A DNA stretch of 64,000 nucleotides from Garicola koreensis (GTDB lineage: Bacteria > Actinomycetota > Actinomycetes > Actinomycetales > Micrococcaceae): contig NZ_JACIBT010000001.1 of NCBI RefSeq assembly GCF_014195445.1, forward strand, positions 868,001-932,000, read 5' to 3'. Numbering within the stretch: the stretch's first letter is position 1; the number at the start of each line of letters is the position of its first letter. The position numbers and the translations under genes are program-made. Below, piece after piece: positions 1,657-19,299 of the stretch. The notes below the pieces were generated by a model, which saw nothing but the letters and a program-made list of their open reading frames with translations, searched no databases and had not been told where the DNA came from.

Positions 1657-4602
1657 TTACTGAATGATGTGGCGGCAGAACTCATCGAAATCTCCCGCCA
1701 TGACGTGATCATCTTGAGAGTATCGCGGAGTTAGGGACATACCTTCGACAAGTACTGGGTCGGGTCGGCCATCGAGCAGTCGGCGACGGCGAAGGATCAG
1801 GTCGACAGCGACCCAGCGCAGCTCGGGAACCGCGCGTACTGCGCGGACGGCGACCCGACTGGCTTCCTCAACCTCGGTTGCGCTGAGGGTTCGGCGGGGT
1901 GCCTCTTCGGTGATGACCCAGGCTTTGTCGGGTGTGGCCAGTACTCTCAGGTGGCGACCCGAGGGTCGGGCCTGGACCCAGGTGGGTTGGAAAGGCAGAG
2001 CGCTGAGGTCGAGGGCTTCTTGTTCGGTCAGGGTCTGGACGCCATCTTGGTTCCATGCTGATTTCGTCGACATGAGGACGACTTGAGTGGTGCGTCCTTT
2101 GACGAAGCGTACCAACCCTTTAGTTGAGGTGATGGCCTGGGATCGAACGACAGGTACCGAGTCCTCTTCGAGGAGCTGGATCATCATGTAATGGTGTCTC
2201 ATTACTTTTCGGAGGACGTAACGATCAGCCGATGTGCGTCCTTCGGCGGTGACCCAGGTGCGCACCCCGCTATGTGACACGATGATGCTGACCTCATCGG
2301 TGATTCGTTCAACGGAGAGACCCTGCCTCAGCCAGGAGTCATGCATCGGGCCACCGATCGTCGAGCTCTCCTGAGCTCCAATGCAGTGTGTTGTCCACAG
2401 GGTGACGGGTTGAGTGGACGCGTCCGGTAGCTGAATAGGTGAATCTGAGGCCGGTACAGGTGCCGTGTCGGCGTATCGAAGCCGGTAAATGTCTTTAGTG
2501 ACGTCCCTGGATTGGCCATAGGTGGGGAAGGCGGCGGAGAGAAATCCCGCGTTGGTGTTGATCTCGATGACGAAAGCTTTCCCAGTCGTCAGGTCGGTGA
2601 TGAGGTCGACCCCGCCCCAGACCAACCCAGGAATCGCGGCGATTGCTTGGCGTGCGGTGTCTTTGACGTCATGGCTGGTGTTTTCCAGGTCCTGCTTGAT
2701 ATCGGCTCCCATGCTGTTGCCGCCGACATTGCGTACCGTCACTATCTCCCCCATCGCAGGGACATCTTCCAAGGTGATTCCCTGACGTTCGAGGAAGCGC
2801 AGTGTGACCCCGTCGATGGGGATCGCGCCGCGCCTAAAGATGGTGTTCCGCGCCCTTTGAAGGTTCTTGTCTCGGATCAGCTCTTGGACCGTAGAGGATC
2901 CGTCTCCCATCACATGCGGGAAAACGCGCACATTCACGGCCACAACCTCATCAGGAGAGGCCATCACACGCATCTCCTGGTCAACCTCGATGTGCTCTTG
3001 GACGATGATCTCGTCGCTATATTGACACGCGTACTCGAACCCGTTTCGGACGTCTTCATCCGAGATGAGGTCTGTGGCAACTCCCCGGCTCTGATTGCCA
3101 CCCTTGGGTTTGATCACGACCGGTCCTGTCATGGTCCTCGCCGCGCCGATTGCATCCTCCGCCGAGCGCACTACCTCAGTCCGCGGCGTTGACACTCCAT
3201 GGGCTTGCAGGAGTTCTGCGGTGAGTGCCTTGTCCCCAACGATCCTGGACCCGACATCCGACTCGTGTGCAGTAGGCCCGTTGGTGAGGAAACGTCTGTC
3301 ACCGGCATCGATTACGGAAGTCGAATCCGCCAGCCACCAAACCTCGGCGCCCGCCGCCTGGGCTCCAAGGGGGAGCGTCATCGCGCCTGAGGGCTTGTTG
3401 AAGCGGATCGCCGCATCCTCGAGAGTCGTGCCGGGACTCTGAAGAGGCCACTCGTTCGGGTCTCCCATCGTCGTTAGAGCTTCCAGCCGCGATGGACGCA
3501 GACCAGATGACCATGCCCCTAGGTCAAGTTTCAGGTGGTGCCCCAGTTCGTCAGCACCTGTCGTCATCGCTGGATTATCGAACCGCCATGGCCTAACCGG
3601 ACGCTCAGACAGAGCATTGACAACCGTCTCGAAGTCCTCCCCAGATACGGGACCAACAGCAACGTCGTTCAGACCCCCAGCCCCAGAGCGCACCGGGTAG
3701 AGCTTCAGGCTGACACGCCGAGAATCCTCGGAGTCGTGGACTTCGAGCATGGCCCACAGTGTGAATGGCAGCGCTTCGACCGTGTTGCTGGAGGATCTTG
3801 GTTGGTCATGTGAGGCGACGGGACTGTCTCCGAGTCCATAGACCACCCACCGTCCCCTCTTACGATGGACCTCCTGCATTCGCTCAGTACCGGTACCCAG
3901 GACGAGGTCAAAGTCCTTGTTGAGCATTTGATGCACCAGAGAGTACTGGAGGCGGCTGCGCCAAGCAGACTGAGTCCGCCAGGACGGCATGGCGACGTGA
4001 AATGCATCCATGCGTGTGGTCTCTAGCCGCGGTCTGGGGACCTCCACGGTACTCAGTGGAGCAAGACCGACGTGATCTTCCCGCGCAATGAGCGCCGAAT
4101 TGCCAGAGGAGCTTCGGGGGCGCATATGAAAGCCATAAAAGTTCAGCTGGCCGCCGCCTGCTGTCCTCGGGATCTCCACTCGCAACGGTTCTAGGGCTTC
4201 AGAGAGGCTTCGCCCAGCACCGAAGCGTTTGAGGTTCTGTTCATCAAGCGCGTCCAATAGCGCCTTCACGTCAGATTGCCCAACGTCTGAGAGGCTGCCC
4301 GAAGCCAAGTGAACTGCATTGACGCCGAGTTCCTGCATCTCCCCAACCCGGACCCTGAACTTGGCGAGACCGGCAGTGAACTCATCGCTTTCAGGCGAGT
4401 GTGACACGGCCACGTCTGTCGAAAGCGTTCCGATCGGAAGGGATGCGATGACATAGTCCGAACTCTCGACGAACGGCGCTGAGGGCTCTAAAGAGTGCGC
4501 AAAGCCCTCGGGCGCCGTCAGCCATGAACCAGTGGACCCGCGACCGCGCCCACCGCTTACGGGGAGCCGCAGAATAAGAACTCGAAAACTTCCTGACGTC
4601 AA
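1657..4602 (-). CDS. CapA-like / ATP-grasp / pseudo-ATP-grasp fusion protein
   Basis: A 981-residue three-part protein. Residues ~48-340 follow the fold order of CapA/PgsA poly-gamma-glutamate proteins (LDALDEQNLKRFGAGRSL, then VVYGLGDS). The metal-binding NNH and GHHPH motifs are replaced by SGSLSD and GTGTER, so the metallophosphatase site looks dead. Residues ~450-710 are an intact cyanophycin-synthetase/GshAB-like ATP-grasp: VVIKPKGGNQSRGV, IIVQEHI, GVDLI and VIEINTNAG carry the lysine, hinge and Mg ligands. Residues ~730-981 resemble a second ATP-grasp with lost ligands. The start is TTG at 4602 with GGAG seven bases upstream. It is the last gene of the minus-strand run. Likely an amide/peptide ligase; substrate unknown. 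Confidence 0.8.
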   Translation of the reverse strand: MTSGSFRVLILRLPVSGGRGRGSTGSWLTAPEGFAHSLEPSAPFVESSDYVIASLPIGTLSTDVAVSHSPESDEFTAGLAKFRVRVGEMQELGVNAVHLASGSLSDVGQSDVKALLDALDEQNLKRFGAGRSLSEALEPLRVEIPRTAGGGQLNFYGFHMRPRSSSGNSALIAREDHVGLAPLSTVEVPRPRLETTRMDAFHVAMPSWRTQSAWRSRLQYSLVHQMLNKDFDLVLGTGTERMQEVHRKRGRWVVYGLGDSPVASHDQPRSSSNTVEALPFTLWAMLEVHDSEDSRRVSLKLYPVRSGAGGLNDVAVGPVSGEDFETVVNALSERPVRPWRFDNPAMTTGADELGHHLKLDLGAWSSGLRPSRLEALTTMGDPNEWPLQSPGTTLEDAAIRFNKPSGAMTLPLGAQAAGAEVWWLADSTSVIDAGDRRFLTNGPTAHESDVGSRIVGDKALTAELLQAHGVSTPRTEVVRSAEDAIGAARTMTGPVVIKPKGGNQSRGVATDLISDEDVRNGFEYACQYSDEIIVQEHIEVDQEMRVMASPDEVVAVNVRVFPHVMGDGSSTVQELIRDKNLQRARNTIFRRGAIPIDGVTLRFLERQGITLEDVPAMGEIVTVRNVGGNSMGADIKQDLENTSHDVKDTARQAIAAIPGLVWGGVDLITDLTTGKAFVIEINTNAGFLSAAFPTYGQSRDVTKDIYRLRYADTAPVPASDSPIQLPDASTQPVTLWTTHCIGAQESSTIGGPMHDSWLRQGLSVERITDEVSIIVSHSGVRTWVTAEGRTSADRYVLRKVMRHHYMMIQLLEEDSVPVVRSQAITSTKGLVRFVKGRTTQVVLMSTKSAWNQDGVQTLTEQEALDLSALPFQPTWVQARPSGRHLRVLATPDKAWVITEEAPRRTLSATEVEEASRVAVRAVRAVPELRWVAVDLILRRRRLLDGRPDPVLVEGMSLTPRYSQDDHVMAGDFDEFCRHIIQ

Positions 4603-4604
4603 TT

Positions 4605-4665
4605 TTGCTCCAACACTATAGTATATTCATATCTTGTAAGTAAGAATTGACTCTATTCGACTTGT
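4605..4665 (-). promoter_or_regulatory. AT-rich promoter-like segment
   Basis: A short AT-rich pocket in GC-rich DNA directly upstream of the TTG-started CapA/ATP-grasp gene contains TATACTATAG on the minus strand, which can act as a -10 box. No clear -35 is seen. The 8-bp palindrome ACTATAGT lies within it. The segment suggests the 981-residue protein can be transcribed separately from the upstream pair. Confidence 0.3.
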
Positions 4666-4692
4666 TGGCGGCTGGCGCCTGCAGCCTCATCT

Positions 4693-5766
4693 TCAATCCC
4701 CCGATGCCGGTCGGCAGTGCACCAGGTGGGCAGAGTCTCCATTGGCGAAGCCTGCTATGGATTGAGTAGTGACAAGTGCAACATCACTTGCCGGTCCGCG
4801 CATACTCAGTTCGGCACCGTCAGCGACGCTCTGCGGCTCGCGAACCACGGTGACTCTGCCCAGCGCATTCACCATGGCGGCCAGCTCGGCGACGAATGAA
4901 TCCGGATCCGGCACGCCGGTAAAGACGAGATCAGCTGAGATCCGCGCGCTCGACTCAGCCAGCGAGATATCCAGTTCTCGGGCTGCATTCTGCACCAGCT
5001 GGTCGGCCAGCCGCAGCGCTTCCCTGCGGGAACCGGCCGCGAAGTCGCGCAGGTGCGGAGAACGCATCACCCGTTCCACCAGAGGCTGCCTGTCGACGTC
5101 GCTGTTCTTGAGCCGGGGGTCGGAGGTGGGGACGGAGATGGTGACCGCTGCCAGGTCCAACCCTGGAATGGCCTCCACTGCGGCCACTGCCAGCTGCAGC
5201 AGAGCAGGGTCAAGGTCCTCCGGGTGTAGTGCGCCTCGGTGGCCTTGGGCTCTCACGGCCAGGACCTGCTGGCCCTGCACCATCAGCCGGATCAGCTCCC
5301 CAGGGACGGTGCTGTGGACCAGCACTTGACCCTTGACCCGCTCAGCGACCTCGCCGAACGCCTTGCTGAGGGAGTCGGCGTCGTGGGCGGTGCGCCGGTA
5401 GGTGCCGGTGAGCGAGGAGACCACCGCGGGCAGGCCGATGCGTTGTGCGTAGGCCGCAGCTGCGGCCTGGGCGTCCGGGGCGAATGTCTGAGACTGCGGC
5501 ACCGGCACCCCGGAGCGGCGGAGCACCTGCCAGGCCCGGCGTGAGGTCTTCACCAGACCGAACCCCCCGTAGGTGGCGCCGTAGGAGCTGAGTTGGTTGA
5601 ATGCCAGCGGCTGCCCAGACTGCTCGGAGGTGAAGACCACCTGGCCGGGAAGACTGGTGGTGGGCAGCCGCCGCGACGCCAGCGCTGCACGGATGCACAT
5701 CGCGTCGTACTGGCCCCGGTTCAGAGACCCGGCGGTGTGGAGGCGCTCTGTGTGCTGTTCAGGCAT
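4693..5766 (-). CDS. Degenerate ATP-grasp partner protein (sub-cluster A)
   Basis: A 357-residue protein with the outline of the neighbouring ATP-grasp proteins (KTSRRAWQVLRRSGVPVP leading into the domain, VEAIPGLDLAAV near its end) but without the catalytic residues. The ATP-binding Lys position reads VVSSLTG, the hinge reads LVHSTVPGE, and the final E-x-N is absent. Its last ~80 residues have an acylphosphatase-like beta-alpha-beta-beta-alpha pattern. ATG 5766 is chosen because ATGCCTGA overlaps the stop of the upstream active ligase by 8 nt, indicating coupled translation and probably a stoichiometric complex. It is a counterpart of 12523-13713. Its role as an inactive subunit is an inference. 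Confidence 0.7.
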   Translation of the reverse strand: MPEQHTERLHTAGSLNRGQYDAMCIRAALASRRLPTTSLPGQVVFTSEQSGQPLAFNQLSSYGATYGGFGLVKTSRRAWQVLRRSGVPVPQSQTFAPDAQAAAAAYAQRIGLPAVVSSLTGTYRRTAHDADSLSKAFGEVAERVKGQVLVHSTVPGELIRLMVQGQQVLAVRAQGHRGALHPEDLDPALLQLAVAAVEAIPGLDLAAVTISVPTSDPRLKNSDVDRQPLVERVMRSPHLRDFAAGSRREALRLADQLVQNAARELDISLAESSARISADLVFTGVPDPDSFVAELAAMVNALGRVTVVREPQSVADGAELSMRGPASDVALVTTQSIAGFANGDSAHLVHCRPASGD

Positions 5767-7039
5767 GGACGGTTTCCACCTCCCGGACGGGGATCCGGTG
5801 TCGGTTGTCCTGTATGAGCGCAAGCCAGACGGCGGCGTGGCCGGCATCGCCCAACACTTCGGCGGCTAACCGGCCCTGGTCGTCAGTCCGCAGACGGCAG
5901 CGCAGCCGCATTTTCCGCGCCCTTGTTCGCAACCAGCGGCGGTAGCGCCAGGTGGCTGTAGGCGCGTCGATGGTGACCTTGAGGTTCACAGAGTCACGAT
6001 GCTCACCCAGCGCCAGGCCGTTGTGCTGCGCTGAGGCGGCCACCATGTCCCGGGCCACCGGCATGGCTGCGCCGTAGAGCGGGTATTCGTGGGAATCGAT
6101 GGCCGGCAGTGAGTTGACCTCACATATGCCCGCCCGCTGCTGACTCAGCGGCTGGCTGATGTCGGGGACCAGAAAGTCGACGCCGCCGAAGCCCAGTCCT
6201 GGCAACGCCTGAACGGCACTGACGCTGGCTTCCAGGATCGAGGGGTGGACTTCCGGCAGCACTTGGGCGGGTTCGCCGCCCATTTGGGTGTTGGAGCCAT
6301 AAGTGAATTCCACCACGCGACCCTCGGTGAGCACGGTGCCTAACGTAATGTCCTGTCGCTCCAGCAGATGCCGCATTCGCTCATCGATGCTGATGGGCCG
6401 GCTCATCAGGTGGGGATTCTGGGTTCGCAGCTCTTGGCGCTGCTCCACCAGCTGACGCACGGTATGCCTTCCGTCTCCGGTGATGGCTCCGCGGCGGCTG
6501 ATCAGAGCGGACACGGCCCGGTCGCCCACCACGATGATGCGGTAGGCCTCGCCGTCGATCTGTTCTTCCACGAGGATGTCGTCGTGAGCATAGGTGCTGG
6601 AGGCTACGTCCTGGAAAGCCCATTCAAGGTCTTCTGTGCTGGAGATCCCGGTCACGACCCCGTGTCCCTGGGCGCCGTGGAGTGGTTTGAGCACCACCGG
6701 GTAGCCGAGCTCTTCGGCGTATGCCGTGGCTGCGGCAATGTTGCTTTGGTCGAAACGCCGCCCGCGGGGAACCGGTACTCCTGCACCTTGGAGGAGCAGG
6801 CGGGTGGAGTGCTTATTGGTGGTCAGCGGACCGGCAGGCCGTGAGTTGAGCACCGTGCCGGACTTGTTGAACGAGATGCCTTGCCCGTCAGCGGCGGAAG
6901 CGATGAAAGTCTGCTCGGAGGTTCTCCACGTGGATAACCCGACGGCTAAGCACTCCCGCTCCAGCAGCACGGTGCTCAGGCCAGCATGGCTCAGACCACG
7001 CATATGAATCGCGATTGGATAGTCGTTCGGCCCGGGCAC
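5759..7039 (-). CDS. ATP-grasp ligase with C-terminal acylphosphatase-like domain (sub-cluster A)
   Basis: A 426-residue protein. The ATP-grasp spans ~70-330 and looks intact: VVLKPLHGAQGHGV (Lys118), ILVEEQI, GDGRHTV, GFGGVDFL and ICEVN. It is of the cyanophycin-synthetase type, which joins an amino group to an acyl-phosphate-activated carboxylate. There is no Mur-ligase domain as in CphA. Residues ~345-425 (NLKVTIDAP to the end) resemble acylphosphatase, but the catalytic Asn position is Thr (RLRTDDQG). It heads a two-gene coupled unit with the degenerate partner 4693-5766 and is a paralogue of 13706-15655 without that protein's ~190-residue N-terminal extension. The ligation substrate cannot be read from sequence. 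Confidence 0.85.
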   Translation of the reverse strand: MPGPNDYPIAIHMRGLSHAGLSTVLLERECLAVGLSTWRTSEQTFIASAADGQGISFNKSGTVLNSRPAGPLTTNKHSTRLLLQGAGVPVPRGRRFDQSNIAAATAYAEELGYPVVLKPLHGAQGHGVVTGISSTEDLEWAFQDVASSTYAHDDILVEEQIDGEAYRIIVVGDRAVSALISRRGAITGDGRHTVRQLVEQRQELRTQNPHLMSRPISIDERMRHLLERQDITLGTVLTEGRVVEFTYGSNTQMGGEPAQVLPEVHPSILEASVSAVQALPGLGFGGVDFLVPDISQPLSQQRAGICEVNSLPAIDSHEYPLYGAAMPVARDMVAASAQHNGLALGEHRDSVNLKVTIDAPTATWRYRRWLRTRARKMRLRCRLRTDDQGRLAAEVLGDAGHAAVWLALIQDNRHRIPVREVETVHA

Positions 7040-7277: not shown

Positions 7278-9176
7278 CTATTGAGGACTTTCCGAGGGTC
7301 CTGCTGCTCCATCGGGAGCTGACGGTCGGGCGCCTGCGATTAATAGGTCAAGTACTTTATCCATCGATCCGGCTACCAGTTCGCTCGCACCGCTGAAGGT
7401 CGGGTTGAGGGAAAGTTCTTCGACTACGGCATTCGGACGCTTTCGCGTCTCATGCTCTGGATAGCGCCGCATAACATCAACGACCGCCCACCGTAGATGC
7501 GGCACAGCTCGAACCGCGCGAGCAGCAAGTTGGGCGACCTCCTCTACAACGTTTTCGCTAGGTGAAGCCTGTTCGGATGGTGCAATCACCGCGAGAGCCT
7601 CATGGGGTGATGCAATAACGCTGAATCGTAAGCCGGGACGACGGGCTTGGACGAACCAGTTGTGACTTCCAGCGAGGATCGACTCATCGATCTGGCCCAC
7701 ACGTTCGATGAGCTTCGAGTGCGCTCTTCCCAAGGACTTGCGCGCCGGCATAACTGACACGCTATCGCCGACTCTTTCGCAAAAGGCAGCCAACTGTTCG
7801 CGGGTCTGGACACGACGACTCGCAGGCCTCGCGACCCGAGATTTGCGCAGGATTTCGCGAAGAAGAAGCGGCCTGCGTACCGGGTAGATGGCGATCGCAG
7901 GATCGCTCTCGTTGAGCACAGAGCCGAACCACAGTTGATCTTCCTCCGGCGTCTCAGCAGACCAGATTCGACGGTTGTGGTTAATGATCCGACAGCCGTT
8001 TGCTCGAAGCTTCCTTTGCATCAAGTCTGAGAGAGTCACTTTCTCGCCATCAGTTGTATCGAAGGAGAAGCCAAGACGACGTGGGACGTCCAGGAGTTTC
8101 GGAATCTGCGCCGCTCCAGTCGGTTCTGGAGTTGAACGCGCATACATCCGGCGCCAAAGCACCTTGCCAAGGTCACGTGGCGCACCAAAGACAGGGAACG
8201 TTGAACCGTTGATGGCCGCGTCGCTGTTAACTTCTATGACGTACGGAATGCCAGTCTTGTGATCGACGACAAGGTCAACCCCACCCCAGTCCATACCCGG
8301 GATCGCTGCGACAGCTGCGACGGCGGTTTGTTTGACTGGGTCGCTGACCAGATCCCAACACTGCTCCGAATCACCACCGCTGGTAATACCGTTGACATCG
8401 CGGACGTCCACGCGTCTGCCTTGTGGAAGGACAGAGTCCAACGTAAGTCCCCGACGCCGCAGGAAACCCTCCGCGACGGCGTCTATAGGGATCGGAGCCA
8501 GTCGGGTGGATGGATTGTGGCGTCGTATTTCGTTTTTCTGCTCAATGAGTTCAACGACAGTCGAATGACCGTCCCCGGTGATGTTGGGAAGAAGTCTGCG
8601 AAAAACTCCCTCACACGCCGTTGAGCTCGCATGAGCACGATACTCCGCCACAACGTCAATATACTGTTCGACTAGGACGCTTGCTTTGCCCTTGGCGGCT
8701 CGAACGAAGCCCTCACGGATATCGTCAGGGTCTGTGACGTTGACAGTAACGCCACGTCCCATGTTGCCATGGACCGGTTTGAGGACGACCGATTGTCCGA
8801 TTTCCTGCTGTGCTTGGATGGCGTCTTCTGCTGAGGATACGCCGCGACCAGCAGGAACCGAGACGCCTGCAGCCTTCATCAGCTCCTTAGCCAGTAGTTT
8901 GTCCCCCACCACCGCGGAAGCAAGCCAAGATTCAGTGCCGAAGTGGCCGAGGATCGCTACTCGCCGGTCGTTGAAAACTGCCCATAGGCTCCGTGTGGTA
9001 AGCCAATCAAGGTTAGCTCCCTGCTGTTCTGCCGCATAGGCAATCGTGGCTGCCCCAAGATTGCGACCATACTGGACACTTTGCTGGGTAAGTTCAAGCG
9101 AGCGTGCGTCGGAGTATTCGTTCGGTTCTCCTTGAGATGTCAAGGATGCAAGGTCTCGGGTTAATTTGTGACTCAT
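7278..9176 (-). CDS. Tandem ATP-grasp protein with degenerate second half
   Basis: A 632-residue protein. The first ATP-grasp (~90-350) is intact: VVLKPVHGNMGRGV with Lys133, VLVEQYI, GDGHSTV, DWGGVDLVV and YVIEVNSDAA. The second half (~360-620) keeps the ATP-grasp outline (LLREILRKSRVARP, WFVQARRPGLRFSVIA, HLRWAVVDVM) but has lost the Lys and the final E-x-N, reading VVEELSLNP. It is the same plan as 15720-17537 and the C-terminal two thirds of 1657-4602. The start ATG shares one base with the stop of the truncated racemase upstream (TGATG), so the two are translationally coupled. Predicted carboxylate-amine ligase, probably using an amino acid or peptide. Confidence 0.82.
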   Translation of the reverse strand: MSHKLTRDLASLTSQGEPNEYSDARSLELTQQSVQYGRNLGAATIAYAAEQQGANLDWLTTRSLWAVFNDRRVAILGHFGTESWLASAVVGDKLLAKELMKAAGVSVPAGRGVSSAEDAIQAQQEIGQSVVLKPVHGNMGRGVTVNVTDPDDIREGFVRAAKGKASVLVEQYIDVVAEYRAHASSTACEGVFRRLLPNITGDGHSTVVELIEQKNEIRRHNPSTRLAPIPIDAVAEGFLRRRGLTLDSVLPQGRRVDVRDVNGITSGGDSEQCWDLVSDPVKQTAVAAVAAIPGMDWGGVDLVVDHKTGIPYVIEVNSDAAINGSTFPVFGAPRDLGKVLWRRMYARSTPEPTGAAQIPKLLDVPRRLGFSFDTTDGEKVTLSDLMQRKLRANGCRIINHNRRIWSAETPEEDQLWFGSVLNESDPAIAIYPVRRPLLLREILRKSRVARPASRRVQTREQLAAFCERVGDSVSVMPARKSLGRAHSKLIERVGQIDESILAGSHNWFVQARRPGLRFSVIASPHEALAVIAPSEQASPSENVVEEVAQLAARAVRAVPHLRWAVVDVMRRYPEHETRKRPNAVVEELSLNPTFSGASELVAGSMDKVLDLLIAGARPSAPDGAAGPSESPQ

Positions 9177-9319
9177 CAGATCATCACCCGCAGGTGCTCC
9201 TGGTCTGTAACCGCGGGGGTGGCTGCGATCAGCTTGGAGTAGAAGTCGACTGTGGCAGCCGGCCCCATCCCGCCGAGGATCCCAACCAGCGGCGCCTGCT
9301 CGGAGTCCTGATTGCTCAC
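9176..9319 (-). pseudogene. Truncated aspartate/glutamate racemase (N-terminal 47 residues)
   Basis: The peptide VGILGGMGPAATVDFYSKLI, continuing to EHLRVMI, is the diagnostic N-terminus of the Asp/Glu racemase family. Family members run to about 230 residues; here a TGA follows at once. GTG 9319 is preceded by a strong GGAGGAG, and the stop overlaps the next start as TGATG, so a 47-residue product may still be translated to couple the downstream ATP-grasp gene. Both catalytic Cys residues would lie beyond the truncation, so it has no racemase activity. It points to a D-amino-acid step in the ancestral pathway. Confidence 0.75.
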
Positions 9320-9491
9320 AACTCCTCCCTGGGGTTCACGCTCTATCATGAAAACCAATATACGCGGTCCGGCGGTTGTCTCGTTCCAGGATCGCCCGCC
9401 ACGCCCACACGTAGACCTATCGTGGCGCCCCAGCCGTTACGATCGGGGTAGCCGCCAGAACCGTGGTTCCCACCAGTTGAGGTATTCATCG

Positions 9492-11032: not shown

Positions 11033-12265
11033 TTAAGGATCGGAATCGGTTTTGCTGGGCAGCGTCTCTGGCGCGGCGGTCCATGCAGCGGCACCGATTA
11101 GCATGATCAATCCGGTGATGCCGAACGCCCAGGCGTAATCGAGGTAATCGACGAGGAACCCTGCTAGCAGCGGGCCGAGGATTCCACCGAGGTCTTGGCT
11201 CATCTGGAAAGTGGAGACGACCGAGCCGCCGTTTCGCCCCTCCCCTACTATGTCAGCAACAGCGGCCTGCTGAGCAGGAACTATCAGCCCGGTGCCGGCA
11301 CCTGCGATCAGACTCAGCGCCAGCAGCACCCACGGTTCAGGCGAGAGGCCCAGGAACCCTGTGGCCACCGCTGCGATCGTTAGGCCGACCATGATGGGGC
11401 GACGGCGCCCCCACTCGTCAGACCGTTTGGCCAGGGTGAGGACCACGGCGACGTTGCCGGCGGCGAAGACGGCTAGTGCGACGCCGGCGAGCTGGCTGGA
11501 GTCGATGACCCACCCTCCGCCGACGAACGCGGACGCCGCGAACAGCGGCACGATGGAGTTCCGAACCCCGAAAGTTGCCCAGCCGTTGGCGAATGCTGAG
11601 GTGAGGGCTGCGCGGTAGCTGGTCTGTGCCCACGCTTCTGCCAGGGTGGCGCGTTCTCGAGTGTCTTTATTGTTGCGATCCTCCAGCCGGGTACCCCGCA
11701 GCATGATGAAGACGAACCCGGCCGCAAGCACCAGTGCACCGCCGTAGACAAGGAATGGCACGCGCTGGCCGAATACCAGGAGCCCGGAGCCAAGCAGGGG
11801 CCCGGCGACGTTGCCGATGAGAAAGGCTGAGGCATAGGCCCCCGAGACCCGTCCTCGAATCCGGGGCGGCGCCTTGCGAGCCAAGAAGGTCATCGCGGAG
11901 ACGGTGAAGAACGTGGAGCCGATACCGCCCAGGGCGCGGAATATGAGCAGCAATTCGAAGTTGGGTGCGAACGCAGTGGCTATCATTGAGACCGCAACGA
12001 TCAGCAGCCCGATCACATAGACCGGGGTCTCCCCCAGCGCTTGTGTGAGTTTTCCGGACGCCGGGGCGAATAGGAGTCGGAAGAGACCGAAGGCGGAGAC
12101 CACCGCGGAAACCGCGAAGGCGGAGACTCCGAAGTCGGACGCGTACTGCGGCAGAATAGGCGCGACGATGCCGAAGCCGATAGCGATGATGAACGCTGAG
12201 GCGATCAGCACCTTCAGCTCTGCTGGGATTCGAGGCGCGGCTGGCCCTAACGCACTGGTACTCAC
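11033..12265 (-). CDS. MFS transporter (drug/metabolite efflux type)
   Basis: A 410-residue, 12-helix major facilitator protein: FRLLFAPASGKLTQALGE after helix 2 (motif A region), RALGGIGSTFFTVSAMTFLA, and AGAGTGLIVPAQQAAVADIV in the C-terminal half. It is divergent from the degenerate ATP-grasp gene at 12523, with about 257 bases between them. A fragment of a close paralogue persists at 7056-7168 beside sub-cluster A, so this transporter and the ATP-grasp pair travel together. I infer export of the ligase product. The substrate is unknown. Confidence 0.85.
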   Translation of the reverse strand: MSTSALGPAAPRIPAELKVLIASAFIIAIGFGIVAPILPQYASDFGVSAFAVSAVVSAFGLFRLLFAPASGKLTQALGETPVYVIGLLIVAVSMIATAFAPNFELLLIFRALGGIGSTFFTVSAMTFLARKAPPRIRGRVSGAYASAFLIGNVAGPLLGSGLLVFGQRVPFLVYGGALVLAAGFVFIMLRGTRLEDRNNKDTRERATLAEAWAQTSYRAALTSAFANGWATFGVRNSIVPLFAASAFVGGGWVIDSSQLAGVALAVFAAGNVAVVLTLAKRSDEWGRRRPIMVGLTIAAVATGFLGLSPEPWVLLALSLIAGAGTGLIVPAQQAAVADIVGEGRNGGSVVSTFQMSQDLGGILGPLLAGFLVDYLDYAWAFGITGLIMLIGAAAWTAAPETLPSKTDSDP

Positions 12266-12522: not shown

Positions 12523-13713
12523 ATGAATCGTAAAGAAGAGGCCCGCGTGGACGCGGGCGGGGTCCCCTTACCAACCAGACTCGTCGACGGTTACCACGTG
12601 CATCGCGCAGCCCTGGCGAGAGATCTCGATGTTCTGTCCCTCCCGCGGCAGGTACTTCTTGCCGGCACTGAGGCGACCGTACCGTCCCAGGTGTCATTTA
12701 CCCACGGGGTCCCTGAAGCTTCAGGTCTGTCCGCCGTGACCTTCGCCCAAGATCAGCGCTTAACTCGCGCGCTGCTTGAGCGCGCGCAAGTTCCAAAGCC
12801 CGCGGGCGCATCTTTTTCTTGGCGGAGCATCTCCAAAGCCGAGAAGTGGGCCAGCAACTTAGGATTCCCAGTCCTCGTGCGCGAAGGCGTGGGCGAGAAC
12901 CCAGCGCGGGCCATCCGGCAATTAAACTCCGCCGAGGAACTGCGCGCGGCCTTCAATCAACTTCGCCGTCGCGACAAAGCCGATCGGACCCCGGGCAGCA
13001 ACCCACACATCGCCGGCTACGCCACCACCCGTCTCACGTTCACCTATGACGAAGAGGGGAATGAAGTTGCTCCTCTCCGGTCACGCATGTTGGTCGAGGA
13101 AGACCCTTTTGGACGCGCCATCCGCGGTTTCGTCCTGGGCGGCCGCCTCATAACGGCAGTGGAACTCGACGGCGACCGCAACACCGGGGTTCGTGAGGTG
13201 ACCGAGGAGTTGGACCCAGAAGTTATCGACGTTCTGGTGAAAGCTGCTGAGGCAGTACCTGGCTTAGCCTGCGCTACCGTGGACGTTCTTGACGAGCGCA
13301 GCGGTCCGGCTCGAGGACCGCTGGTAATGAGTGTGGCTGAACGACCCCGGATAGAAACGTATCTCTCAGCCAAGCATTCTCTCGGCGACCTCATCGGTGA
13401 CGCCCTCCTTGAGTTTCAGGCACGCGAAGCGAACATCGCCCTCGGAACCTCTAGGACTTCGCTTAAACGACACATGGAGATCGAAGGGCTACGCCACGCC
13501 GCCGAAGCGGCAGACCAACTGCCCAATATCGCCGAGAACTACGGCGCCGAAATCAGCATCGACAACGCTGATGCCGTCACTGGGGACGTTGAAGCTACGG
13601 CCACGGGCTCACCCGAGGTGCTTGCAGCACTCGCTGAGCTGCTCATGGCCGGTGAGCTCCTCAGAGACCGAGCTGCTGCAGTGAACTACTCGAAGGGACC
13701 ATCCATTGACTGA
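12523..13713 (+). CDS. Degenerate ATP-grasp partner protein (sub-cluster B)
   Basis: A 396-residue paralogue-like counterpart of 4693-5766. It has the lead-in LTRALLERAQVPKPAGASFS and the mid-region EAVPGLACATVDVL of ATP-grasp proteins. The ATP-binding Lys is replaced by Arg (VLVREGVGEN), and the final E-x-N becomes LVMSVAER. The last ~80 residues have an acylphosphatase-like pattern (RHMEIEGL ... GDVEATATGSPEV). An AAAGGGA precedes ATG 12523. Its stop overlaps the TTG start of the active ligase by 8 nt (TTGACTGA), so the inactive/active pair is coupled here too, in reversed order compared with sub-cluster A. Probably a structural or regulatory subunit. Confidence 0.7.
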   Translation: MNRKEEARVDAGGVPLPTRLVDGYHVHRAALARDLDVLSLPRQVLLAGTEATVPSQVSFTHGVPEASGLSAVTFAQDQRLTRALLERAQVPKPAGASFSWRSISKAEKWASNLGFPVLVREGVGENPARAIRQLNSAEELRAAFNQLRRRDKADRTPGSNPHIAGYATTRLTFTYDEEGNEVAPLRSRMLVEEDPFGRAIRGFVLGGRLITAVELDGDRNTGVREVTEELDPEVIDVLVKAAEAVPGLACATVDVLDERSGPARGPLVMSVAERPRIETYLSAKHSLGDLIGDALLEFQAREANIALGTSRTSLKRHMEIEGLRHAAEAADQLPNIAENYGAEISIDNADAVTGDVEATATGSPEVLAALAELLMAGELLRDRAAAVNYSKGPSID

Positions 13714-15655
13714 AATCGGCACTCCTGAAAGCAGTTCTGGTGCTATCAAAGTAAAGCAGCCAGCCACGATAACTTTTACACGTCTCGTTCGACTGCGTCG
13801 TAACGACGAGAGCCACCAGCCGAGCAGAATCTACGCTCAGATCGTCGGTGCGCACCCCGGCGGAGAGGTTTCAGCACTCGGCCACGCAGAACTATTCCAC
13901 GACGACGAACACGTCCCTCTGCCCGCGGAGGCTTGGTCAGCAGGCGAGGCAGTGCTGGAGGCGCTGCACCCCAACGAGATCACGCTGGACGACCACCGTC
14001 GGACTCGGGGCTTGATCGACGAGCTTACTCGCACGGCCGAGTACACTGCCAAGCGATCGCTCACCGATTACTCCCAAGAGGCGTTTGACACGGTTTTCCG
14101 TGCAGTCAAAGAAGCCTTCCTAGTCTTTTGCAACACCGAACCCACTGACGTTGCAGTTGATGAGCTCGGCGCGCTACTCGATCGGAACATGGGCAGCGTC
14201 ACGCGGTACTTCGTTTCGCCAGCGCCCGCCGCGCCGAGCTACCAGGGCACCCCCGCCAACGCCTTCCAGGACGCACCATACATTGAGCCCCTGCCTAAGG
14301 ACGGCACCAAGGGGCACCTTCTCGAACGAGAGGCGCTGCGGTACGGAATGGCGAGCGCCCGTTACCCCAACGGTGCGTTTGTTGTCACTGACCCTGATAG
14401 CGAAAAGCAGATGGCGTTCAAATGGGGACGATCGCCGCTGGCCAGCGGGGTCGCACTTTCCATCTGCTCCTATAAGGAAGCTACTCGACGCCTGCTTAAG
14501 AGAGTCGACGTCCCTGTTCCGAAGGGCCGAGTGTTCTCACCAGCCGACTGGGAGCTGGCGGTGGAGTATGCGGACCGCATCGGTTATCCCGTGGTGTGCA
14601 AACCCGTGGCGGGTCTTCGAGGTATTGGAGTGGTTGCCAACATCCAAAACCGCACTGAACTGGAGTCTGCTCTTAAGCTGTACCGACACAGTGAGCTCGG
14701 CGATGATGACTTTGTGATTGAGGAGCACGTTCCGGGCGAGGATTACCGCATCGTTGTGATTGGCGATCAGGTGGTGGCCTCAGTTGTTCGGGCCCCCGCT
14801 TCCGTCACCGGGGACGGCCGGCACACTATTGCTGACCTTATCGAATACAAGAACCGCGCCCGCCGCGAGAATCCACACCTCAGTTCACGGCTTATCAAGA
14901 TCAATGATTCCGTGGAGTATCAGCTGAGCCTGCGGAACCTCTCCTTCTCCTCTGTACCGGCACCTGGCCAGGTAGTGACGCTGGCTAACTCCGCCAACTT
15001 ATCGCAAGGTGGGGACAGCTTTGAAATTGCTGATGATATGCACCCGTCGATCAAGGAGCTCTCTGTCAAAGCGGTCCAGGCGGTCCCAGGTCTAGGGTTT
15101 TGCGGGCTGGACATGCTCATCGAGGACCACACGAAGCCTATATGGGAGCAGCGGGTAACCGTTATCGAACTCAACGCCCATGCGGCCATCGGCAGCGCCC
15201 AGTACCCGATGTGGGGCGAGCCCGCTCCAGTGGCGAAGAAGTTCTTTGAGGTGACTTCAGCACATAACAACATCGCTCTTCCTCTGACGCCAAGCGATGA
15301 ACTGACTCTGAAACTGACAGTGCGGGGCCGAGTTTCGCGTGGTAAGTACAAGGACTGGTTCCGGCGCCGTGCGGAAGATTTCGGGCTAGACGGCTACGTC
15401 AAGACGGCGGGACGGAACCGCGTGGAGGCTCTCGTCTCCGGCAACGCCGACGCCGTGTCTGCTCTGGGCTACCTCGCCATGCAGGGCCCCAAGCGAGCTA
15501 TTCCTACATCCGTCACCATGGAACCCGCTGTTTGGGATGAGCCTCATCACGGTTTCAAGGTTGTCTCCGATTCCGCAGCAGGCAGCGGCACCATTCTGGC
15601 CCGAAGGATCTTCTTCGGTCTTCGCCGAAGGGCGAGGAAAGCACTCTTAAGGTAA
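13706..15655 (+). CDS. ATP-grasp ligase with C-terminal acylphosphatase-like domain (sub-cluster B)
   Basis: A 649-residue protein. Residues ~1-190 are an extension of unknown fold absent from its paralogue 5759-7039. The ATP-grasp (~255-520) is intact: VVCKPVAGLRGIGV, FVIEEHVPGEDYRI, GDGRHTI, GFCGLDMLI and VIELNAHAAIG. Residues ~535-620 are a clear acylphosphatase-like domain (RGRVSRGKYKDWFRRRAEDF, then VEALVSG). In it, the catalytic Arg is Lys and the Asn is Thr, so hydrolase activity is unlikely. The C-terminal tail is strongly basic. The start is TTG 13706 with GAAGGGA upstream. It ends before a hairpin shared with the convergent 15720-17537. Confidence 0.85.
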   Translation: MTEIGTPESSSGAIKVKQPATITFTRLVRLRRNDESHQPSRIYAQIVGAHPGGEVSALGHAELFHDDEHVPLPAEAWSAGEAVLEALHPNEITLDDHRRTRGLIDELTRTAEYTAKRSLTDYSQEAFDTVFRAVKEAFLVFCNTEPTDVAVDELGALLDRNMGSVTRYFVSPAPAAPSYQGTPANAFQDAPYIEPLPKDGTKGHLLEREALRYGMASARYPNGAFVVTDPDSEKQMAFKWGRSPLASGVALSICSYKEATRRLLKRVDVPVPKGRVFSPADWELAVEYADRIGYPVVCKPVAGLRGIGVVANIQNRTELESALKLYRHSELGDDDFVIEEHVPGEDYRIVVIGDQVVASVVRAPASVTGDGRHTIADLIEYKNRARRENPHLSSRLIKINDSVEYQLSLRNLSFSSVPAPGQVVTLANSANLSQGGDSFEIADDMHPSIKELSVKAVQAVPGLGFCGLDMLIEDHTKPIWEQRVTVIELNAHAAIGSAQYPMWGEPAPVAKKFFEVTSAHNNIALPLTPSDELTLKLTVRGRVSRGKYKDWFRRRAEDFGLDGYVKTAGRNRVEALVSGNADAVSALGYLAMQGPKRAIPTSVTMEPAVWDEPHHGFKVVSDSAAGSGTILARRIFFGLRRRARKALLR

Positions 15656-15702: not shown

Positions 15703-15719
15703 ATGAACGGATCCACCGA

Positions 15720-17537
15720 CTAGAACCCTGCGATCGTATCGAGCGCCAGCTCCAAGGACCCGGCACACAAGTAGTTGAAGCCCGCTAGGTTCCTCTGGAC
15801 CGACATGCCCTCGACTTGTACTGCACTCCCAAGCGCTTCCGGAATGACAACGTCAACCTCAGCCCACTGCAGGCCTGGGGTCGCCCTCACTGCGTCTAGA
15901 GCAGCCATGCTCACCCGATGTGCTTGCTCAGTCGTGGGGATGTAACTGGGGTCTCGAGAAAGGACGGCTAAGCAGCGGGTCCGGGAGCAAAGAGCCCGTA
16001 CATGCGCACCCGAAACTATGCGCTGAGCCAACAGTCTCGAGCGCATGTCAAGGGATAATTCCGCTTGTGCGCCCATGTAACGCTGGTGGCCGGCCCACCC
16101 CATTTCCCGCGGAACAAGCGCGAGCCCAACCTTTGACCGTTCTCGGTAGGCTTCAATCTGCTCGATGCCGATTACTTGGCTAGCCCTAGGTACGCGCACG
16201 TCTGCGTCGCGAAGAATGGATCGCACCGTGTGGTGACGTCGCAATAGAGAACTGACCCTAGCCGGAAAGCGTTCATCCATTACGCCGTTAAACCACTTCT
16301 CGTGATGAGGCGTCCTGCTGGCGCGCATGAGACGATCCGACTTCACGTCTACTAGCCAACCGTTTTTTTCTAGATGGGTTACCAATAGGGCTCTGAGGTT
16401 AGGCCCCTGGACACCGTGCTCAAGACCACTTTCGTCCCATCCCTCTTCCACTGCTGTCGGAGAAGCAAGCGGGGCCGCACCTTGACGCTCCTGTTTCTCC
16501 ACAGACGACTCGGCAAGCATGCGGGTCCAAGCAACCCGCCCGACATCTTTGGGTTCGCCGTAAACGGGGTAAGTGGAATTGCTAATGGCGGCGTTTGTAT
16601 TGAGCTCAAGAATATAAGGTGTACCGGACCCTGCGGATAAGAGAATGTCGGCGCCTCCCCACTCCATGGTGGGTATTGCAGCCATTGCATCACAGGCCAG
16701 GGTTGTCACGGAACGGTCAAGTAAGTCGAGACACTCACTGGCCTCCCCGCCACTACTAATCCCCCCAACATTGCGCACTATTATGCGTTCATCAGTCGCC
16801 AAAATGGATTCGAGCGTCAGACCTTGACGATGCAAGTGTTTCTCAGTGGTGTCGTCCACGGGAATCGGAAGCCTGCAGTTATTCGGGTTTCTTTTGCGAA
16901 CATCATTCTTCTCAGAAATTAATTCTTCGATCGTCGATGTTCCATTCCCGGCAACATGAGGAAGCAAGCGCCTTACAGCTCCGAAACACTCATCTGGCGT
17001 TGCCAGCAACCTAAATTCGACCCCGTCTATATACTCCTCAATTATAACGCCTTGCTTCCGTACCTCTATAGCGAAGAAGGCGTCACGAACCTCCGATGCG
17101 GACTGCACGTTGACCGTCACCCCCTTTCCCTGCCCCCCGAACCTTGGCTTCACCACAACCGACGATCCAAGTTCTGCTCGGATGGCTTCAGCCTCTTCGG
17201 GGGTGCTAGCAAGTCCACCGCGGGGGGTAGATAGCCCCGCATCCTGCAGGAACTGCTTGGTCAGGTACTTGTCTCTTACAATCTGCCCACTGGTGGCCGT
17301 GTCGGTGCACATATGTCCGCGTAATAAGACACGGCGGCCCGCTTTCTTCGCGATCGCAGTGTAAACGCCGTGCCATTCAACTGACGCCCCGTCCCGCTCG
17401 GCCGCGCGCGAGGTAACTAGGGTTCCAATACTCCGACCCCGGTCCAGTTGTTGAGAAACTATGCTTTGAGACTCCGGATCTTCGTACGTGTTGGGTTCAT
17501 CGGCAACAATCGGTGGAAACCTGTCAAAGATCGTCAT
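15720..17537 (-). CDS. Tandem ATP-grasp protein with degenerate second half
   Basis: A 605-residue protein of the same plan as 7278-9176. The N-terminal ATP-grasp (~85-345) is intact: VVVKPRFGGQGKGV, VIIEEYIDGVEFRLLA, EWGGADILL and YILELNTNAA. The C-terminal half (~400-605) retains LRDADVRVPRASQV and LQWAEVDVVIP but has no ATP-binding Lys and no E-x-N. Parts of the gene (around 16,550-17,050) are visibly richer in A and T than the flanking core genes, consistent with acquisition by transfer. It is convergent with 13706-15655. A predicted carboxylate-amine ligase of unknown substrate. Confidence 0.82.
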   Translation of the reverse strand: MTIFDRFPPIVADEPNTYEDPESQSIVSQQLDRGRSIGTLVTSRAAERDGASVEWHGVYTAIAKKAGRRVLLRGHMCTDTATSGQIVRDKYLTKQFLQDAGLSTPRGGLASTPEEAEAIRAELGSSVVVKPRFGGQGKGVTVNVQSASEVRDAFFAIEVRKQGVIIEEYIDGVEFRLLATPDECFGAVRRLLPHVAGNGTSTIEELISEKNDVRKRNPNNCRLPIPVDDTTEKHLHRQGLTLESILATDERIIVRNVGGISSGGEASECLDLLDRSVTTLACDAMAAIPTMEWGGADILLSAGSGTPYILELNTNAAISNSTYPVYGEPKDVGRVAWTRMLAESSVEKQERQGAAPLASPTAVEEGWDESGLEHGVQGPNLRALLVTHLEKNGWLVDVKSDRLMRASRTPHHEKWFNGVMDERFPARVSSLLRRHHTVRSILRDADVRVPRASQVIGIEQIEAYRERSKVGLALVPREMGWAGHQRYMGAQAELSLDMRSRLLAQRIVSGAHVRALCSRTRCLAVLSRDPSYIPTTEQAHRVSMAALDAVRATPGLQWAEVDVVIPEALGSAVQVEGMSVQRNLAGFNYLCAGSLELALDTIAGF

Positions 17538-17862
17538 TGTAGATCCGCCGTTCGTTATAGCTAGGCGCTATGCGCTTGTTGTGGCTGTTGGGTCTTTAGG
17601 TGAACCTGAGGTCACCCCGTGGGAGTACGCCCCGTTATTGGCTAGTGCACTGGATGGCCAGCGGCATCTCTTACCTCACTTGCAACCTTTCTCGTGAACA
17701 AATTCTAGGCCGTCGATAGCTTGTACGTTTACGAAATCCCAGGTGCGCCTTCGAAGGTTCGACAGCACCGCCAACTCTCAAAGCGGCCCGGGAAATTGAG
17801 CAACAACGTCGTAACCCCGCCACCCTTTGGGGCATCGGCGCCGAGACGTTCCGGACCAGCAC
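17538..17862. other. 325-base intergenic stretch with a possible gene remnant
   Basis: No intact gene is seen. The plus strand can be read as KAAREIEQQRRNPATLWGIG around 17780-17840, which looks protein-like but is bounded upstream by a stop and runs into the 3' end of the gene on the other strand. I do not recognise the family. No tRNA or att-like repeat was found here. Confidence 0.3.
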
Positions 17863-19299
17863 TCAGCGCTCTGTGCTTCTTCGAACCGCACTAAGCAGTT
17901 CTTCGGTGAAGTCTCCGAATAAGGGCTGTCCTGTAGCAAGCTGGTACAGCCACACAGCCCCCCGAAAGTTGCATTCGATGAGCACGGGCAGCCCGTCGTG
18001 ATCTATGGCGACGTCCCAAGACAGAAGGTCGAAGTAAGGGACGTCGTGATGGAGCCTCCGGGCGAACTCCACGACGTCGCCGTAGCCCGGGACCGACGGC
18101 ATGGACTTGAATGAGACGCTGCTATCGGGATGACTTTCGAAGAGCTTTCCGTGCTCGTTGATGGCGTACGTGTTGAAAGACCCGTCAGCCTGCACTCCGA
18201 CGCACAATCCGCCCGTGCCCGCATTGTCGTTTATGCGTCCGTCGACCCCGAACCGTGCAAAGGTCAGAAGGTGATGAACATCTCCGTTCCACCGAAGCGT
18301 GACGACCCGAAGGGTATTCAGGGAGTCCGGGTGAGGCGCGGCAAGGGTCGGATGCTGTGGGACTATTTCCTGCACCATGAAGTTCTGCCGATATCGCCGC
18401 TTCAATCCCCTGAGAGTCAGTTTCCTGCTGCCAACGCCGATCTTGTCTTCGCCTGCGTACTCCAAGAGCTCAACGCCACGACCATTGTCCAGGCTCGTGG
18501 GCTTGATGATACCCCTCCCTACTCGCGAAAGTATCTTGAGGACCTCCGTGTCATCCAGTATCCAGTTGGCATCCGCATCGTAGAAGCGCCCATCGATACA
18601 GACAAGCGGCATCCTCGGCTGCCTCTCATTTGGGACCAATCGGCTGAAGAGCACCTTGTCGGAATAGGCGGCTATCAAGTTGGCACCTGGGTTCAAAGCA
18701 CGCCAAATCGTTCGATATTCGGCTTGCGGAACCACCCTGCGATCCCAGGATTGAGTCACATTCGAGAAGGCGACGTGAAAACTGGGGTCCACATCCCGAC
18801 CCCAGAGCTCACGCCAGTACTGCTTCGACCGTTGTACCTCAGCCATCGGAGCATCTTGAAGAAGCCCGCTGGAGTGCAGGGCTGGGAACTGACGTGACGT
18901 CGTATCAATGCCGAGCGAGTCGTAATATGCAACGTCGTCTTCGTTCTCAAGGAGAAATTCTTCCCGCCGAATGCGAAAATTGGATGTCCCTTCGGCCTCA
19001 AGTGATTCTGCAAAATCGGCTCGCACATCCTCGGCCTCGTGAGTCCAGCTCTCTATGCTTTGGATGAAGTCCTGCAATCCGTGTGGACGGAAGGCGACAA
19101 CTTCAACGGTGCCGTCTGACCTTCGGCGTGCCCAACCAACAGTACCGGTTACGTTCGCAGCAGACCGGGCGTCACGAAGGATTTGGCGCGTATCGAGTTC
19201 CCCCTTCAGGATGATTTTCAACCCCGTAGAAGCATTGAAATTTTGGCCTTCAGAGCTTGCCTTCTGGTGCAACATAGTCCCTGCTTTCGGTTCGTTCAC
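17863..19299 (-). CDS. Acylphosphatase-like / sugar-transfer-associated ATP-grasp fusion
   Basis: A 478-residue protein. Residues ~26-90 are acylphosphatase-like (LKIILKGELDTRQILRDA, then TGTVGWARRRSDGTVEVV). The catalytic Asn is Arg and the P-loop-like turn is altered. Residues ~200-470 match the ATPgrasp_ST family (PF14397): SLNTLRVVTLRWNGDVH, an NDNAGTGGLCVGV segment, LLSWDVAID and PVLIECNFRGAVW carry the metal-binding end. ATPgrasp_ST proteins are often found with polysaccharide genes. It lies 80 bases downstream of smc on the same strand, at the edge of the island. The N-terminal fusion links it to the other acylphosphatase-bearing ligases here. Confidence 0.75.
   Translation of the reverse strand: MNEPKAGTMLHQKASSEGQNFNASTGLKIILKGELDTRQILRDARSAANVTGTVGWARRRSDGTVEVVAFRPHGLQDFIQSIESWTHEAEDVRADFAESLEAEGTSNFRIRREEFLLENEDDVAYYDSLGIDTTSRQFPALHSSGLLQDAPMAEVQRSKQYWRELWGRDVDPSFHVAFSNVTQSWDRRVVPQAEYRTIWRALNPGANLIAAYSDKVLFSRLVPNERQPRMPLVCIDGRFYDADANWILDDTEVLKILSRVGRGIIKPTSLDNGRGVELLEYAGEDKIGVGSRKLTLRGLKRRYRQNFMVQEIVPQHPTLAAPHPDSLNTLRVVTLRWNGDVHHLLTFARFGVDGRINDNAGTGGLCVGVQADGSFNTYAINEHGKLFESHPDSSVSFKSMPSVPGYGDVVEFARRLHHDVPYFDLLSWDVAIDHDGLPVLIECNFRGAVWLYQLATGQPLFGDFTEELLSAVRRSTER

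Follow-up and report, generated by a model that had tools for sequence, protein, structure and literature searches.

We analyzed a stretch of 64,000 nucleotides from Garicola koreensis (contig NZ_JACIBT010000001.1, positions 868,001 to 932,000; this whole stretch is called the window), whose positions 1657-19299 hold an island of genes for ATP-grasp proteins. Based on the observations described below, we suggest with moderate confidence that the island provides the peptide ligases of a locus making a cell-surface glycopolymer with short non-ribosomal (iso)peptides, and it is highly probable that its enzymes are amide ligases as such. The ligase chemistry is indicated by family membership, and the link to a glycan by gene context together with the Cj1438C and teichuronopeptide precedents. 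A preliminary description made from the sequence had reported eight open reading frames (ORFs) with ATP-grasp segments here, and profile scans of the window ORFs, catalytic residues, and a structure model of one protein confirmed them (A-D and G-J in Table 1). Since A, D, and I carry two ATP-grasp domains each, the eight ORFs contain eleven such domains instead of eight: five catalytic (live), five non-catalytic (dead), and one of the sugar-transfer type. All five live domains are of the cyanophycin-synthetase type, which is their best NCBIfam model.

Live and dead ATP-grasp domains

The live domains of A, C, D, H, and I retain both ATP-site Lys residues, the Asp, and the E-x-N motif. The preliminary description had also counted the hinge Glu as intact in all five, which does not apply to A, where a Gln aligns to that position and a Glu stands beside it. 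Its proposal that the proteins are amide ligases of the acyl-phosphate type agrees with both the homology and the intact residues.

We use dead as a sequence definition, for domains without a segment of ~70 residues and without the Asn of E-x-N. As a single sequence, B has no Pfam match and weak NCBIfam matches, and G is likewise weak. When the B/G family was compared with the H family using hhalign, the two aligned over 336 columns across the ATP-grasp and acylphosphatase parts (100%, E 1.4e-41). The B/G family lacks ~68 residues corresponding to H 367-437, including the GDG, KN, and GG motifs, and the Asn of E-x-N is absent in 27 of 27 members, being replaced by Ser in 24, Ala in 2, and Met in 1. 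In the same alignment (n = 27), 12 members retain the first ATP-site Lys, 24 the Asp, and 16 the Glu of E-x-N, and a Glu follows in 26; in G of the window, the two Lys and the Glu are replaced by Gln, Arg, and Ser. The description of B and G as plainly dead was dropped, because 23 of 27 members have the second ATP-site Lys and 26 of 27 the hinge Glu; judging from these residues, domains of the B/G family may still bind nucleotide. For the weak members, the ATP-grasp fold expected from the preliminary description was recovered in the AlphaFold2 models of G (pLDDT 90.3) and D (pLDDT 87.2). The top PDB matches of the G model are cyanophycin synthetase, ArgX/LysX, and RimK, and cyanophycin synthetase is among the top solved structures for D by fold and for the H family by sequence.

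In D, I, and A, the C-terminal half (D residues 378-618) aligns to the live N-terminal half of the same protein (E 2.7e-17), and the longest gap, of 65 residues, is located at the same place as the segment missing from B/G. Based on the B/G profile comparison and these half alignments, five live domains are accompanied by five dead partners, which are fused in A, D, and I and encoded by a separate overlapping gene in C+B and H+G. A protein of 817 residues from a congener (L015:3022-5475; congeners are Nesterenkonia genomes, Micrococcaceae) has a C-type ligase fused to a dead domain.

The pairing rule holds for the island and is not universal. Among acylphosphatase-bearing ligases of the named loci (n = 55), 42 have a dead neighbour, 1 a fused one, and 12 no partner, and among the other live ATP-grasps (n = 58) the partner is fused in 13 and a neighbour in 11, 9 lie at an edge, and 25 have none. 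In a second locus sample, which includes own-genome loci and overlaps the named ones, the corresponding numbers were 20, 1, and 1 (n = 22) and 16, 1, 2, and 37 (n = 56). Phrase searches for inactive, degenerate, or pseudo ATP-grasp found no paper in a search space that excluded most subscription papers.

Conservation of the H+G pair across genomes

A genome scan with the H alignment yielded 77 loci, of which 37 (L054-L090, 24 of them outside Nesterenkonia) constitute the H-type set. The other 40 (L091-L130) are weaker matches from the same scan, mostly other cyanophycin-type ligases, and serve as the control set; three of them are Nesterenkonia loci and five have no ATP-grasp by profile. The coupled pair proposed in the preliminary description recurs widely: the dead partner adjoins the H-type gene on the same strand in 35 of the 37 loci, overlapping it in 20 of the 35 and preceding it in 7. 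One of the 35, L069 of N. pannonica, has its genes in pieces, 624 nt apart. As for the remaining two loci, L081 is cut off by the end of its contig, and the anchor gene of L089 was a paralog, an H+G pair being located at the end of that locus.

When we compared gene families between the two sets, using profiles built from members of the H-type set, rows of which several come from the same species or genome, and control loci that are shorter (16.0 vs 19.8 kb), the dead partner family was found in 36/37 H-type loci and 0/40 controls. The enolase (30/37), CapA (20/37), Asn-synthase-like (18/37), glycosyltransferase (18/37), and racemase (12/37) families were also found in 0/40 controls, and the family of the gene at 24412-25587 (29/37) and UDP-sugar dehydrogenase (10/37) in 1/40 each. 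Mur-ligase genes or fusions occurred in 10/37 H-type loci vs 21/40 controls and the MFS family in 6/37 vs 4/40, and the APC family was in none of the 37 H-type loci or 40 controls. Some of the relatives' ligase loci include Wzm/Wzt-type exporters. The preliminary description had taken unlinked genes in other genomes as evidence against itself; the genes proved to be linked in many of them.

Hosts outside Nesterenkonia are Brevibacterium, Phytoactinopolyspora, Haloechinothrix, Actinophytocola, Ruania, Leucobacter, and Glutamicibacter, and further Propionibacteriaceae, a Micromonosporaceae bin, Halomonas/Vreelandella, and Sulfitobacter. Of 120 family genomes, the own genome included, 2 have a match at E<=1e-60, both within the genus; all 30 genus genomes match at 1e-20, and 13 of the 30 at E<=1e-100. 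In 396 phylum genomes, the dead-partner profile was found at E<=1e-25 in at least 3, the own genome included, which is a lower bound because four candidates per listed genome were scored.

Further arrangements were noted in several relatives. In genome G143 (L014-L017), a stretch of ~50 kb contains two H+G sets, UDP-sugar dehydrogenases, several more ATP-grasps, and large double glycosyltransferase proteins. In Halomonas stenophila (L073), H+G adjoins sugar genes of the dTDP-rhamnose type and a Wzz-like chain-length gene. A protein of 1453 residues from N. alkaliphila (L031:82-4443, minus strand) has the enolase, CapA, and ATP-grasp set in a single chain, and one of 1695 residues from Phytoactinopolyspora halotolerans (L057:9932-15019, plus strand) joins an H-type part, CapA, and a second live and dead ATP-grasp. 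A 1136-residue protein (L013:2812-6222, plus strand) combines BspA-type leucine-rich repeats with a CapA domain and an ATP-grasp.

Racemase, CapA, and enolase domains

The racemase remnant reported earlier at 9176-9358 is real. This stub matches PF01177 with E 0.0011 (19.3 bits vs a cut-off of 31) and, across 48 residues, shares 81% identity with a complete congener racemase; in the own genome (2.25 Mb, 80% complete), it is the single PF01177 match, and no complete domain was found. In relatives such as L059, L062, L065, and L071, an Asp/Glu-type racemase stands directly before H. Four full-length relatives' racemases pass the NCBIfam cysteate racemase model (208-259 bits vs a cut-off of 190) and also the Asp-racemase subfamily model.

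Although A matches PF09587 above the cut-off, the conserved residues of CapA are lost in it. The relatives' CapA domains match the lasso epimerase MslH (PDB 8gq9; PMC10406935), the Halomonas domain with E 1.3e-17, and 19 of 32 rows, duplicates included, keep all tabulated Asp/NxE/NNH/His positions. According to the accessible part of that paper, the catalytic residues of MslH are His88/Asp91 and His295/Asp11. In our reading, the conserved positions of the relatives would correspond to these residues, the Asp91 position being outside our table, and the relatives' CapA domains are probably epimerases. The own genome contains one more CapA-like match, which is interrupted by a stop.

The active-site set R-K-D-E-DE-K of enolase-type domains is kept in 13 rows (11 distinct proteins), all fused to CapA, Mur, or other ligases; these sets are only presumed to be intact, because the solved epimerase 3q45, as read here, has Lys as the first residue of the set. 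Other non-H enolase domains (for example, L059_8, L067_9, and the stand-alone Halomonas domains) lack the set. No H-type protein keeps it, and the H-fused enolase domain was accordingly rejected as an active epimerase. The N-terminus of H itself is a weak candidate for an enolase remnant (E 0.001 in an unfiltered search of ten sequences), and a search without a positive control found no enolase match in the own genome (80% complete). The acylphosphatase of H lacks the Arg and Asn. Taken together, these results suggest that the window strain has lost the racemase, CapA, and enolase functions. The preliminary suggestion of a link to D-amino acids is therefore upheld by relatives, with their racemase, enolase-, and CapA/MslH-type domains, but not by the window strain.

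Selective constraint

We calculated the ratio of non-synonymous to synonymous differences (pN/pS) against N. natronophila (L054) for A, B, C, G, H, I, the smc head, and the MFS gene, of which only the direction counts because synonymous divergence is saturated for several genes. All compared genes were below 1. The value for H was 0.28 (ligase 0.12, N-terminal part 0.45, acylphosphatase 0.48), and those for G, C, and B were 0.30, 0.22, and 0.43 (partial), respectively. I gave 0.37 (live 0.29, dead 0.46) and A 0.51 (CapA 0.61, live 0.37, dead 0.59), and the values for the smc head and MFS were 0.31 and 0.12. Live domains are thus more constrained than the dead domains fused to or paired with them, and the relaxation in the CapA part of A is in line with its lost residues.

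Location of the island and neighbouring genes

The island is flanked by ftsY on the left, upstream of the window, and by smc on the right. When the own genome was searched with H, 16 match lines were obtained at E<=0.001. These comprise H, A, B, C, D, and I (one line each), G (two lines), the gene at 34215, six further ATP-grasps elsewhere, and a lone acylphosphatase domain. This search and the gene linkage in many other genomes indicate that the island is not a chance arrangement. In seven loci with both flanks on the examined DNA, the ftsY-smc distance is 25.3 kb (window), 15.3 kb (G137), 12.3 kb (G133), 10.5 kb (G126), 6.8 kb (G132), 6.7 kb (G012), and 4.3 kb (G135), and ftsY-smc is therefore a variable site. 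It is not the sole one, as G131 and G143 have ligase sets in stretches where neither ftsY nor smc was found.

A transposase/integrase-core gene (PF00665; positions 2-889, minus strand, running on upstream) adjoins the left end of the island, where it is preceded by a short ORF at 880-1230. The island is fragmented in N. pannonica (L030/L069), where stops interrupt its genes, which is an example of loss within the genus. Copies of the APC permease are 74% identical in two congener loci, and the MFS protein is 73-87% identical in congeners. J also matches PF00708 (E 8e-4), below the cut-off of that family.

Table 1. Genes of the island and related features elsewhere in the window, with the evidence for each
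Feature	Position	Strand	Evidence and remarks
A: degenerate CapA (PGA_cap) + catalytic ATP-grasp + dead ATP-grasp	1657..4602	-	PF09587 E 4.3e-15; gene-caller start 4413
B: stand-alone dead ATP-grasp, partner of C	4693..5766	-	longest ORF starts 5847; 8-nt overlap with C
C: catalytic ATP-grasp + acylphosphatase-like domain	5759..7039	-	profile matches, catalytic residues
D: catalytic ATP-grasp + dead ATP-grasp	7278..9176	-	residues; AlphaFold2 model; PDB matches
Asp/Glu-type racemase remnant, ~first 50 residues	9176..9358	-	PF01177; NCBIfam for full relatives: cysteate racemase
APC-type amino acid permease	9555..10970	+	PF13520 E 5e-39; longest ORF starts 9312
MFS transporter	11033..12265	-	gene-caller start 12211; several congeners have it near ftsY or smc
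G: stand-alone dead ATP-grasp + acylphosphatase-like part, partner of H	12523..13713	+	profile, AlphaFold2 model
H: N-terminal stretch weakly enolase-N-like + catalytic ATP-grasp + acylphosphatase	13706..15655	+	8-nt overlap with G
I: catalytic ATP-grasp + dead ATP-grasp	15720..17537	-	residues, self-alignment
J: acylphosphatase-like + sugar-transfer-associated ATP-grasp	17863..19299	-	PF14397 E 8.2e-39
smc, right boundary of the island	19380..22922	-	
Sugar-transfer ATP-grasp	24412..25587	+	PF14397; family adjoins H in relatives
Small conserved protein after the Asn-synthase-like gene	30676..31221	-	no Pfam match; similar congener genes
Asparagine-synthase-like protein	31214..32926	-	PF00733 E 4.6e-6
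Glycosyltransferase-like protein	32919..34124	-	Pfam glycosyltransferase matches below cut-off
Single ATP-grasp, D-x-D replacing E-x-N	34215..35336	+	beside exporter genes; similar ones in congeners
ABC-2 permease	35438..36373	+	best NCBIfam names Wzm/KpsM, below cut-off
ABC ATPase	36384..37454	+	best NCBIfam names TagH/Wzt, below cut-off

Comparison with known systems

Cyanophycin synthetase (CphA1/CphA2) is among the closest known systems, being the best NCBIfam model for the live domains and, for D and the H family, among the top solved structures. The window ligases differ from it in having no fused Mur domain, in scoring far below the curated cut-off (217.5 vs 877 bits for H), and in the added dead partner. 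N-acetylglutaminylglutamine synthetase (TIGR03103) does not describe them either, the best score being 139.1 vs a cut-off of 569 bits. The preliminary description had stated that Mur-ligase and PgsB/PgsC genes are absent. No Mur gene was found among 72 genes (the window and 18 kb upstream), but this absence is not general, given the Mur genes of related loci. The statement on Pgs holds for the own genome (80% complete), where the PgsB model has one match of 19 bits vs a cut-off of 222.7 and PgsC has none; both models exceed their cut-offs in one control genome. An intact CapA of the Pgs/Cap type is likewise missing, as A matches PF09587 without the conserved residues.

Two systems tie an ATP-grasp amide ligase to a surface polymer. 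In the accessible text on Campylobacter Cj1438C (PMC11800379), a TupA-like ATP-grasp beside a glycosyltransferase amidates the glucuronic acid of the capsule, and in that on Bacillus halodurans (PMC8153356), teichuronopeptide is described as poly-gamma-glutamate plus polyglucuronate, with TupA linked to this wall polymer. The TupA-like enzymes are another ATP-grasp family, whereas the island has many paired ligases of the cyanophycin type; among the proteins scanned, J and the product of 24412-25587 belong to PF14397, and no TupA model matched. Roles of ATP-grasp enzymes in teichuronopeptides were reportedly discussed by Iyer et al. in 2009.

With MslH, the relatives' CapA domains share the Asp, NNH, and His positions, but they score 48-83 bits vs a cut-off of 700, and the window copy lacks the residues. 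Graspetide branch 8 also has an inactive ATP-grasp beside an active one; as far as the available part of the source (PMC8939145) goes, the inactive protein there consists of two N-terminal domains only, whereas here the fold is complete save one segment. A paper on penicillin synthesis by ligases (PMC13338154) was rejected as a precedent, because the part seen concerns an engineered in-vitro cascade and contains no such loci. Searches for ATP-grasp together with acylphosphatase yielded no paper, and neither the paired architecture nor the gene set was found in the literature searched (titles and abstract starts, with most subscription papers outside). The catalytic unit is known, and the paired architecture (an H-type ligase with an adjacent same-strand dead ATP-grasp, as found in the window) and the gene set are new relative to that literature.

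Proposed function and alternative explanations

Folds, intact residues, live/dead pairing, gene linkage, and constraint on most genes were established computationally, and for the attachment to a glycan, the substrates, the order of steps, and the roles of the dead and epimerase domains we propose the following scheme. A live domain would turn a carboxylate, of a sugar uronic acid or of a growing-peptide end, into an acyl phosphate and join it to an amino group, and the dead domain, fused or encoded by an overlapping gene, would hold or position the acceptor or the live subunit. Residues would be added by the five pairs one after another or at separate sites, and the acylphosphatase domains may remove or bind acyl phosphates that go astray. 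According to the accessible part of a 2015 paper (PMC4431377), ATP-grasp ligases that are linked often perform successive ligations in such products. In relatives, the racemase would supply a D-acidic amino acid and the enolase- and CapA/MslH-type domains would epimerise residues after ligation, so the product there perhaps often contains D-residues. Assembly of the glycan would fall to the glycosyltransferase-like and amide-forming genes nearby, and its export to the ABC-2 type transporter.

Here, we need to consider several observations that weigh against a surface glycopolymer. Profile scans of the 72 called genes detected neither a UDP-sugar dehydrogenase nor an enolase or Mur gene, the racemase is present only as the stub, and CapA only as the degenerate domain of A; the own genome (80% complete) has no complete racemase of the window type, and its one distant UDP-sugar dehydrogenase relative (29% identity) is on another contig. 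In the window, smc separates the glycan genes from the island, and the two do not form one operon. An ABC ATPase profile matched in 9/37 H-type loci vs 7/40 controls, and an ABC permease profile, within the flanks examined, in only 3/37 vs 0/40. The Halomonas, Vreelandella, and Sulfitobacter loci are without the window's Asn-synthase-like and glycosyltransferase families. Live ATP-grasps without any partner are also frequent in the named loci (12/55 with and 25/58 without acylphosphatase).

The APC permease and MFS transporter, both of which the Pfam scan verified within the island, are also compatible with a soluble compound. The preliminary description had proposed such a product, a free oligo-amino-acid or isopeptide for which the MFS protein, for example, could serve as exporter, with the surface-polymer genes as a separate unit. 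The similar MFS copies in the same region of congeners fit this proposal, as does the action of cyanophycin/glutathione-type ligases on free amino acids or peptides. However, relatives' ligases often occur with glycosyltransferases, sugar-transfer ATP-grasps, and UDP-sugar dehydrogenases, and the 24 loci outside Nesterenkonia have neither the MFS nor the APC family (0/24), whereas 21 of them hold the family of 24412-25587, 13 the glycosyltransferase family, and 10 the Asn-synthase-like one. Moreover, G135 has the MFS gene, but its ftsY-smc interval holds one unpaired ATP-grasp and no dead partner. We therefore regard a free exported product as rather unlikely. A cytoplasmic storage polymer or compatible solute, cyanophycin-like or N-acetylglutaminylglutamine-like and used, for instance, under osmotic stress, seems improbable: cyanophycin synthetase and, at lower scores, N-acetylglutaminylglutamine synthetase are the best named families, and several host names suggest salt or alkali (from the names alone), but H stays far below both curated cut-offs, the window ligases have no Mur domain, and the recurrent neighbours are of the glycan type.

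The losses described above raise the question of whether the window island is decaying and product-less, with only relatives' loci functional. The racemase stub, the residue loss and relaxed pN/pS of the CapA part of A, the acylphosphatase of H without Arg and Asn, the transposase at the left end, and the fragmented island of N. pannonica all point in this direction, but all eight ATP-grasp ORFs are open across the expected domains, and whole-gene pN/pS values of 0.22-0.51 (A, B, C, G, H, I) compare with 0.31 for the smc head, so that we give decay little weight. Least probable is a ribosomal-peptide (graspetide- or lasso-like) or protein-tagging system. The Asn-synthase-like gene is weakly similar to macrolactam cyclases, relatives' CapA domains resemble MslH, and inactive ATP-grasp partners are described in one graspetide branch (PMC8939145, as far as available), but the ligases are of the amino-acid-ligase type, and inspection of 20 loci by eye revealed no recurrent small precursor gene by H+G, a weak argument since genes of <60 residues were uncalled. 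Antiphage defence was rejected, as the eight proteins have no PADLOC match.

Returning to the surface glycopolymer, we tentatively extend it to a template-free assembly line, which is possible rather than probable. Each step would be performed by a live+dead ATP-grasp heterodimer or fused dimer in which the dead domains are acceptor-binding subunits, and the set and order of pairs, together with built-in epimerases of two different folds, would fix the sequence and chirality of the peptide on the surface glycan. Within Nesterenkonia, the loci would have been reshuffled between strains at ftsY-smc, and they would also have passed from one phylum to another, perhaps for the most part between bacteria from salty or alkaline habitats.

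Significance

ATP-grasp amino-acid ligases are well known singly. Here they occur as sets of live/dead pairs, in relatives with racemases, fused epimerase- or Mur-type domains, and often glycan genes, across two phyla. If the proposed function is true, these loci would represent a new route to peptide-bearing surface polymers, with D-residues in relatives, without ribosomes or non-ribosomal peptide synthetases. They would also give the dead ATP-grasp domain a job that is testable by omission, and they would be a source of ligase-epimerase fusions.

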